A stretch of DNA of 34,170 nt from contig JAAYCU010000344.1 in the NCBI GenBank assembly GCA_012729595.1, positions 1-34,170 on the forward strand, given 5' to 3'. Below are positions 227 through 2,401 of this stretch, in pieces. The notes beneath the pieces were generated by a model. It was not told where the DNA came from and did no database searches. It saw only the letters and a list, made by a program, of their open reading frames with translations. Made by a program: the position numbers and the translations under genes. The stretch comes from Phycisphaerales bacterium. Lineage in GTDB: Bacteria; Planctomycetota; Phycisphaerae; UBA1845; PWPN01. Each line of letters opens with the position of its first letter. Within the stretch, counting starts at the first letter, position 1.

Positions 227-254
227 TTGACGAACCGATTATCAATGCTATAGT
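227..254 (+). promoter_or_regulatory. Sigma-70-type promoter of thrS
   Basis: TTGACG (227-232), a 16-base spacer and TATAGT (249-254), with TGC directly before the -10 to make it an extended -10. Transcription would start near 261 and give a leader of about 200 nt before thrS. It is the best promoter match in the left part of the window. Confidence 0.65.
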
Positions 255-293
255 TGAAGATAAGTAAAGCGTTCGCCAGCGGTTGACGAACCG
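227..293 (+). repeat. Direct repeat TTGACGAACCG, two copies
   Basis: The 11-base word TTGACGAACCG occurs at 227-237, covering the thrS -35 box, and again at 283-293 inside the leader. The second copy also forms a small hairpin, CGGTT-GACG-AACCG. The 56-base spacing and the overlap with the -35 suggest a possible regulatory role. This is inference only. Confidence 0.5.
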
Positions 294-339
294 TATCTAG
301 TAGGCTCGCGCTAACGAGGGCCTGAAAGACACGTATTTG

Positions 340-446
340 AACGGCATGAGATCCACGACGCGTACAACGGCTTCATGATATGCTTCGCTCTCCATATCGG
401 CGGAGTACGAAGCGCCAGCGCGAATGGATCCCGTGCCGTTTTTTTT
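340..446 (+). terminator. Intrinsic terminator/attenuator in the thrS leader
   Basis: Bases 340-354 pair with 426-440 in a 15-position stem with one G-U pair and one A-C mismatch. Eight T residues (439-446) end the structure, 14 bases before the thrS ATG. The 71-base loop holds a second hairpin (GCTTCG pairing with CGAAGC, with an inner CTCC/GGAG). The word AACGGC occurs both in the left arm (340-345) and in the loop (366-371), so the right arm has two possible partners. This is the layout of a transcription attenuator for an aminoacyl-tRNA synthetase gene. The conserved T-box sequence was not found. Confidence 0.55.
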
Positions 447-460
447 GAGCGCAGGTGTCG

Positions 461-2401
461 ATGCCCCGAATAACTCTTCCTGACGGTTCCTCGCGTGAAA
501 TACAAACCGGCGCCACCGTCGCCGACGTGGCCGACATGATCGGTCCGCGTCTGGCCCGCTCGGCCATCGGCGGAAAAATCGATGGTGAGGTCGTTGATCT
601 CGGCAGTCCGCTTACCCGCGACTGTCAAATCAAAATCCTTACCCCTAGCGTCGACGACGCGGACAGCCTCCACCTACTCCGGCATAGTTGCGCGCATATC
701 ATGGCCGAGGCTATTTGCAGTTTGTTCCCCGAAACCAAACTGGTCTACGGCCCGCCGGTGGAAAACGGCTTCTATTATGATGTCGATCTGGACCGCCCGC
801 TGACCCCGGAGGATTTCGCGGCCATCGAGGCCAGGATGGCCGAGATTATCAAGGCTGATCGCCCCTTCGTCCGTTACGAGATGGACCGCGACGAAGGCAT
901 GCGGAAACTTCAGGCCGAAGGCAACCGCTATAAAATCGACAACGCCGAACGGGCCGAGGGCAAACTCAGCTTCTACGTCACCGGCGAGCGGTCAGACAGC
1001 GCCTTCGAGGATCTCTGTCGCGGCCCGCACGTGCCCAGCACCGGCCGCATCGGCGCTTTCAAAGTGATGCAGGTCAGCGGGGCCTATTACCGCGGCGATC
1101 AAAAGGAAAAACAACTCCAGCGTATCTATGGCACCGCCTGGCCGACGAAGAAAGATCTCGAAGCCCACCTCTTCCGGCTCGAAGAGGCCAGAAAACGCGA
1201 TCATCGCGTCCTCGGCAAACAGCTTGGTATTTTCAGCATCCACGAGGAGATCGGGCCGGGCCTCATTCACTGGCACCCTCGCGGCGGCATGATCCGCCAT
1301 CTGGTCGAGAACTTCTGGAAAGACGAGCACCTTAAGAGGGGCTACGACATTGTTTTCACTCCGCACATCGCCAGCGAGCGGATTTACCGGCGCAGCGGGC
1401 ATCTCGAAAAATACGGCGACATGATGTATTCGCCCATGGATATCGACGGGCTGAATTATTACCTCAAGCCGATGAATTGCCCCGGCCACTACATGATCTA
1501 TCTGAGCGATATCCGCAGCTACCGCGATCTGCCCATCCGCATGTGCGAGCTAGGCACGGTATATCGCTACGAGCCGTCCGGCACGCTGCACGGCATGTTG
1601 CGGGTCCGCGGATTCACCCAGGACGACGCCCACACCTTCTGCACTCCCGAGCAGTTAGGCCAGGAGCTGGATATGCTCCTGGAACTGATGGACCTGATGA
1701 TGCGGACCTTCGGGTATCAGTACAAGGCTTATCTGGCCACCCGGCCGGAAAAGTATCTGGGCACCTTGCAGGAATGGGAGCGGGCGACCAACGAACTTCA
1801 GATGGCCATGGAACGTCGAGGCTTGGCGTTTGAGGTCGACGAGGGCGGTGGCGTATTCTACGCCCCCAAGATCGACATCAAGCTGATCGACTCCATGGGT
1901 CGCGAGTGGCAGGGTCCGACCATCCAGGTCGATCTTCAGGCCGCCAAACGATTCGAGATTACCTACGTCGGGGCGGACAACGCTCCGCACGAAACGATTA
2001 TCATCCACCGCACCGTGCTTGGCAGCATGGAGCGCTTTATCGGCGGGTTGATCGAGCATTACGGCGGAGCCTTCCCGATGTGGTTGGCCCCGGTGCAGAT
2101 CCTGCTGGCCTCGGTCAGCGAAAAGAGCGCCGATTATGCCCGGGAGGTTCTGGCCCGCTTGAAGGCCGCCGGCCTGCGAACGCGGCTGGATGTCTCCCAC
2201 GAAAAGATCGGCCCCAAAAAACACGCTGCTCGCCAGGAAAAGATTCCGTACATCCTGGTCGTCGGCGAGAAAGAGGCGGCCGAGGGAACGGTCAACGTGA
2301 ACGACCGTTCCGGAAAGAGTCTCGGCAACCAGGCGGTGGATGCGTTCATCGCCCACTGCCGGAAGCTGGTGGCCGAGCGGGCCCTCGAACCGGGGGCATG
2401 A
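461..2401 (+). CDS. thrS: Threonyl-tRNA synthetase
   Basis: Charges tRNA-Thr with threonine in the cytoplasm. The 646-residue product has the usual bacterial length and domain order: TGS domain (about 1-60); editing domain with the HxxxH pair (His75, His79) and the Cys186/His190 pair that hydrolyses Ser-tRNA-Thr; class II catalytic core with zinc ligands Cys340 (in MNCPGHY), His391 (DDAH) and His516 (HRTVLGSMERF); and a C-terminal anticodon-binding domain from about 540. The start is taken as the ATG at 461. A GTG two codons upstream (455) is possible but lies inside the weak AGGTG ribosome site. It is preceded by a long leader with an attenuator-like structure and followed 115 bases later by infC, the common thrS-infC order. 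Confidence 0.97.
   Translation: MPRITLPDGSSREIQTGATVADVADMIGPRLARSAIGGKIDGEVVDLGSPLTRDCQIKILTPSVDDADSLHLLRHSCAHIMAEAICSLFPETKLVYGPPVENGFYYDVDLDRPLTPEDFAAIEARMAEIIKADRPFVRYEMDRDEGMRKLQAEGNRYKIDNAERAEGKLSFYVTGERSDSAFEDLCRGPHVPSTGRIGAFKVMQVSGAYYRGDQKEKQLQRIYGTAWPTKKDLEAHLFRLEEARKRDHRVLGKQLGIFSIHEEIGPGLIHWHPRGGMIRHLVENFWKDEHLKRGYDIVFTPHIASERIYRRSGHLEKYGDMMYSPMDIDGLNYYLKPMNCPGHYMIYLSDIRSYRDLPIRMCELGTVYRYEPSGTLHGMLRVRGFTQDDAHTFCTPEQLGQELDMLLELMDLMMRTFGYQYKAYLATRPEKYLGTLQEWERATNELQMAMERRGLAFEVDEGGGVFYAPKIDIKLIDSMGREWQGPTIQVDLQAAKRFEITYVGADNAPHETIIIHRTVLGSMERFIGGLIEHYGGAFPMWLAPVQILLASVSEKSADYAREVLARLKAAGLRTRLDVSHEKIGPKKHAARQEKIPYILVVGEKEAAEGTVNVNDRSGKSLGNQAVDAFIAHCRKLVAERALEPGA

Follow-up and report, generated by a model that had tools for sequence, protein, structure and literature searches.

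A candidate threonine-codon leader attenuator upstream of thrS in Phycisphaerales

Organization of the thrS leader

The window analyzed here is a 34,170-nucleotide contig of a Phycisphaerales bacterium (JAAYCU010000344.1, assembly GCA_012729595.1) that carries thrS, the gene for threonyl-tRNA synthetase (ThrRS), at positions 461 to 2401 of the forward strand. ATG 461 is the likely start codon rather than GTG 455, because the ThrRS proteins of relatives begin with MPxVTLPD. The closest named relatives of this thrS come from MAGs of Phycisphaerae and Planctomycetota. Compared with window positions 455 to 2401, most ThrRS sequences of the order (e.g., G002) match in two separate blocks that share a frame, within open frames of approximately 720 to 790 amino acids, which suggests an insertion of approximately 70 residues near residues 328 to 334 of the window protein. 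This insertion is missing from the 648-amino-acid ThrRS of the window and from those of G006, G016, G005, G020, and G013.

An extended -10 promoter, TTGACG-N16-TATAGT, lies upstream of the gene on the same strand (227 to 254), as do the leader features of the window described below. Its -35 hexamer (227 to 232) and -10 hexamer (249 to 254) are separated by a 16-nt spacer, and a TG precedes the -10. The initial annotation had called this promoter strong, and a promoter scan agrees, with 10 of 12 matches and the top rank among three sites in 3 kb (1.1 in shuffles). A similar promoter, TTGACG/C-N16-TATAnT, lies 5' of leaders in relatives. A transcript starting near 261, as inferred from the promoter, would have a leader spanning 261 to 460. 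When this leader was folded, as the initial annotation had proposed, the region from 261 to 470 was more stable than its shuffles (z = -2.79; 1 of 200 shuffles equally good).

The leader ends in a terminator-like hairpin. A complementarity search pairs a 5' arm (340 to 355) with a 3' arm (425 to 440) over 16 positions that are 88% complementary, comprising by eye 14 Watson-Crick pairs, one G-T pair, and one mismatch. The loop holds an inner hairpin (382 to 413), seen in the fold and as an inverted repeat (382 to 393 and 402 to 413), and the stem runs into a tail of eight T residues (439 to 446) that ends 14 bases before ATG 461. Stem, T8 tail, and the covariation described below together identify an intrinsic terminator before thrS, a feature expected of leader-peptide attenuators. 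A search of the whole window against Rfam at the gathering threshold returned no matches, T-box included, and a search of positions 150 to 520 at E <= 1 likewise returned none, including to the T-box and the gamma-proteobacterial Thr leader. On these results we rejected a T-box or another Rfam family as the sensor. Both the T-tailed stem and the lack of a T-box had been proposed from the sequence at the outset and hold up here.

The sensor, which the initial annotation had considered unknown, appears instead to be a short leader open reading frame (ORF) that an ORF scan places between the promoter and the gene (346 to 378). It reads ATG AGA TCC ACG ACG CGT ACA ACG GCT TCA TGA and encodes MRSTTRTTAS, with Thr codons at 355 to 360 and 364 to 369, so that four Thr codons fall within five consecutive codons. 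The ORF sits on the terminator 5' arm, which overlaps its start codon and ends at its first Thr codon. A 13-codon form is also possible, starting from a TTG at 337 in the same frame. Counterparts with conserved frame and position were found in relatives, and short ORFs with Thr codons occupy the same place in a set of 31 leaders from 24 genera.

Conservation of the leader in the family and the order

The family comprises 13 genomes, of which ten are readable; one of the others is masked, one has a contig end just before thrS, and one lacks the 5' end of thrS. A homologous leader is present in seven of the ten, with leader peptides ending in STTRTTAS, STTTTTA, LTTRTTA, SMTRTTL, SVTRTIA, LMTPTIA, and PTTRTTE. 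A further genome, G010, has the Thr ORF and no T-tailed stem. Two genomes of a single genus, G003 and G011, have no leader before thrS and retain TTGACG-N16-TATAGT 72 nt 5' of the thrS match; this pattern is suggestive of a deletion of the attenuator. The leader terminator of G004 (L013) lies approximately 164 nt before thrS, compared with 16 to 63 nt in the other family leaders, a spacing that leaves room for another element or promoter.

Two repeats had been put forward in the initial annotation as parts of the control element. An 11-mer, TTGACGAACCG, occurs as an exact duplicate over the -35 (227 to 237) and within the leader (283 to 293), where it can fold into a small hairpin. It is absent from all other family genomes examined, one of which is masked and one of which has almost no upstream sequence. 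Similarly, a second copy of AACGGC, thought to compete from within the loop, lies on the Thr-Ala codons of the leader ORF (366 to 371), and G004, G005, and G007 lack it. Both repeats exist as described, but because neither is conserved they are not essential parts of the element, and we rejected them as working parts.

Covariation in related leaders, on which the initial annotation had staked its reading, is clearly present. Pairing in the 16-pair stem amounts to 85.7% over the seven family leaders, both sides have changed in 7 of the 16 pairs, and none of 500 shuffles reached the covariation score. Sliding the partner column by one to three positions lowers pairing in these leaders to 43% or less. 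When distal arms were exchanged among the genomes, total pairing was equal or better in 5 of 5040 permutations, the genomes' own arrangement being one of the five. An order-wide alignment of 36 leaders (A2) has both sides changed in 11 of 12 pairs, a figure that is inflated because pairing energy was one of the criteria used to choose the sequences. Together, the terminator and the covariation in related leaders support, at the level of sequence, the earlier proposal that the synthetase gene may be controlled by premature termination.

A covariance model (R1) built from the seven family leaders was searched in 114 genomes of the order. It recovers all seven training leaders and, directly 5' of thrS, held-out leaders in G038 (E = 1.4e-5; ORF MMTTRTSS) and G083 (E = 0.0098; ORF MTHTTA). 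It matches the window's own genome once and the masked family genome weakly. Over the order it gives 43 matches at E <= 0.1, mostly away from thrS, and the matches away from thrS are probably due to chance.

A hairpin-first scan that ignored ORFs covered 102 thrS upstream regions of the order, with 40 rounds of dinucleotide shuffles as the control. It sought a T-tailed 3' arm with a distant 5' arm, a duplex of -22 kcal/mol or better, and a tail 10 to 170 nt 5' of the thrS match. The scan found 42 hairpins (shuffle mean, 7.9; maximum, 12), 37 of them with an ORF of 4 to 16 codons in the 5' arm (mean, 3.3; maximum, 7) and five without such an ORF. Threonine accounts for 72 of the 223 residues of these ORFs (shuffle mean, 1.4 of 30.2, or 4.6%; maximum, 4), a fraction that was not tuned. 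It is encoded by codon 2 in 23 of the 37 ORFs (shuffle mean, 0.1; maximum, 1), and 25 ORFs contain two or more Thr (mean, 0.2; maximum, 1). The offsets of the first Thr codon and the stop fall within a common range, set after the data had been viewed, in 28 cases (mean, 0.1; maximum, 1).

For the 31-leader set, geometry limits and membership were settled with the data already in view, and at least one Thr was required per leader. G016 falls outside it by geometry; G005 is outside because the hairpin-first table assigned that genome another hairpin, and R1 does find the G005 leader. Codons beginning with AC number 68 in frame, compared with 8 in each of the other two frames, and 31 of the 68 are guaranteed by the required Thr. 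The third base of the Thr codons varies (ACG, 44; ACA, 21; ACC, 2; ACT, 1), and the stop keeps its position while changing type (TAG, 14; TGA, 13; TAA, 4). The restriction of Thr codons to one frame, together with the variation in third bases and stop types, therefore indicates selection on the peptide code. With the shortest start taken, 27 of the 31 ORFs are 5 to 7 codons long, for example MTRTA and MTRTTC.

Outside this set the pattern loosens. G030 (L026) and G033 (L025) have a strong T-tailed hairpin before thrS and an ORF that has lost the early Thr and ends in M[FI]TV. In many f4 and f7 genomes, short Thr ORFs such as MMLRTQTL, MLRTRGTRTL, LIDTYQTS, and LIYTRRTK occur with no T-tailed terminator. 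In f7 (G018, G022, G032, G044, and G053), a conserved short ORF ends in TS with ACATCGTGA at the stop, or AACATCGTGA in G018, again without a T-tailed terminator; this ORF may reflect a different mode of control or be a relic. Nine other synthetase (PF00133, PF00587) or homoserine dehydrogenase loci of the window's own genome showed no hairpin with a cognate-rich ORF. A second model, R2, searched in a sample of 392 genomes of the phylum under strict filters, gave four matches besides that of the window itself, none with thrS in the locus. Among 72 named thrS loci with enough upstream sequence, eight have a Thr-ORF hairpin, and all eight are apparently genomes of the order already counted.

Ribosome occlusion of the terminator and competing readings

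We consider it likely, with a probability of roughly 0.87, that thrS is controlled by a ribosome-mediated transcription attenuator that senses Thr codons, the stalled ribosome itself keeping the terminator from forming. RNA polymerase would start near 261 and transcribe a leader whose terminator 5' arm holds the tiny, Thr-rich ORF. When Thr-tRNA is ample, the ribosome would read the ORF quickly and, at the stop codon or after release, leave the outer 5' arm free, so that the hairpin would form and transcription would end before thrS. When Thr-tRNA is scarce because either threonine or ThrRS is low, the ribosome would wait with the first Thr codon in its A site. Its footprint, extending approximately 15 nt upstream of the P site, would then cover the outer arm, no terminator would form, and thrS would be transcribed. 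A separate antiterminator hairpin would be unnecessary. From the conserved architecture we infer translation of the ORF, ribosome stalling, termination, and a response to threonine.

Folding with a modeled ribosome is in line with direct occlusion, the probable mode of action. Bases under the ribosome footprint, 15 nt upstream of the P site and 17 nt from the P site downstream, were kept from pairing. All 31 leaders retain 0 to 2 stem pairs when the A site is on the first Thr codon; when it is on the stop codon, 9 to 17 pairs return in 29 of the 31. In the window leader, moving the A site codon by codon from the first Thr codon to the stop gives 0, 0, 0, 6, 9, 11, 14, and 15 stem pairs. On these counts, a ribosome at the first Thr codons would mask the outer arm, which would be free again with the ribosome at the stop; the full block would come from the first Thr codons only, because later ones cover just part of the stem. 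The first Thr codon lies 14 to 23 nt from the start of the arm, a range produced by the selection of the set, and this spacing agrees with the reach of a ribosome footprint on its upstream side.

Several observations count against this reading. The stems of G083 and G105 fail to return in the fold with a ribosome at the stop codon. Shine-Dalgarno pairing of the leader starts is weak, reaching -4.5 kcal/mol or better in 5 of the 31 leaders, with values of +0.4 at the ATG and -1.5 at the in-frame TTG of the window leader. The hairpins of G030 and G033, with no Thr near the ORF start, and the f4 and f7 Thr ORFs that lack a T-tailed terminator also fit it poorly.

An alternative is that the terminator is blocked by whichever ribosome sits at the leader start, with the Thr codons only fine-tuning the response, as in control by growth rate. 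The ultrashort ORFs, whose start codons lie in the 5' arm, are reminiscent of the E. coli ampC attenuator, which is linked to growth rate, and just one Thr is present in each of several f8 leaders (MTYIA, MTVIA, MTLIPW, and MTHAR). The strong, repeated enrichment of Thr before the gene for the threonine synthetase nevertheless points to amino acid specificity, and we regard this alternative as unlikely.

Somewhat less likely again is a classical attenuator, in which the stalled ribosome would let the AACGGC copy or the 382-to-413 hairpin capture the 3' arm. The repetition of AACGGC in the loop is consistent with such a switch, as is the centroid fold of the leader, which departs from the minimum-energy fold outside the stem. 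Against it, the copy is not conserved and would lie under or beside the stalled ribosome, and in all 31 folds the stem is lost once the arm by itself is blocked. No conserved alternative partner was seen that would form the separate, mutually exclusive antiterminator hairpin of trp-type attenuators. For this reason, and because the loop copy is not conserved, we place the thrS leader as a variant of the general attenuator kind and not as a trp type.

Binding of ThrRS to its own leader, or of another regulator to the hairpin, would make the ORF incidental. In the E. coli type of thrS operator, ThrRS binds a tRNA-like leader close to the ribosome site. E. coli ThrRS does regulate its own expression, as PMC2965389 mentions, but an incidental ORF is hard to square with frame-specific Thr codons whose third bases and stop types vary, and we judge this improbable. 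A plain terminator of upstream transcripts, or chance, is very improbable: window base 1 is also the first base of the contig, so that a gene upstream cannot be read, but the hairpin sits between the thrS promoter and thrS, and 42 hairpins with Thr ORFs contrast with 7.9 in shuffles.

Relation to known attenuators

Leader-peptide attenuation is a long-known principle. The ampC and pyrBI attenuators of E. coli share the direct mode of action proposed for the thrS leader, in that a ribosome on their short leader obstructs a terminator arm; unlike the thrS leader, they involve no sensing of cognate codons for the amino acid of the gene's own synthetase. T-box riboswitches stand before aminoacyl-tRNA synthetase genes and thus share the target gene class and the outcome, whereas the thrS leader gives no T-box match and its sensor would be an ORF. 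Proteobacterial and actinobacterial leader-peptide attenuators, such as those of trp, his, thr, pheST, leuS, and trpS, sense aminoacyl-tRNA by cognate codons and a terminator, as the thrS leader may (PMC1262725 and PMC1183508, accessible portions). The trp, his, and leuS types have separate terminator and antiterminator segments, and the accessible text of PMC1262725 describes separate antiterminators in actinobacterial leuS and trp attenuators; the thrS leader differs in having its ORF, perhaps of 5 to 7 codons, within the terminator 5' arm.

The nearest parallel is thrL of Streptomyces lividans, which lies before thrS and encodes a leader peptide with Thr codons for which attenuation was proposed (PMC8079986, in the portion available). 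As described there, thrL has 18 codons and two Thr, is leaderless, and has no clear T-tailed terminator, unlike the planctomycete leader; the two were compared by description. In the literature located on thrS, leader peptides, and attenuation, the accessible texts yielded the Streptomyces case only. PMC2965389 (2010) states that Proteobacteria and Actinobacteria were the only groups with known leader-peptide systems before its own Firmicutes case. Literature found on Planctomycetes and attenuation, likewise available in part, yielded no leader-peptide amino acid attenuator for that phylum; PMC4833913, as far as its available text goes, concerns ORF-to-gene distances. The kind of element is thus known from Streptomyces thrL, and the phylum and the minimal architecture appear to be new.

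We further think it probable, with distinctly less confidence than in the attenuator itself, that these leaders form a minimal class of attenuator in Planctomycetota, spread over at least three families of one order. Its ORF of 5 to 7 codons would lie wholly inside the terminator 5' arm with codon 2 as the regulatory codon, and a ribosome barely past initiation, waiting for Thr-tRNA, would serve as the antiterminator without a second RNA structure. If so, the leader-peptide mechanism would extend to another phylum, and the finding would point to coupled transcription and translation in Planctomycetota. The leader would then contain perhaps the smallest amino-acid-sensing ORF and would be useful for probing a minimal ribosome-based sensor.
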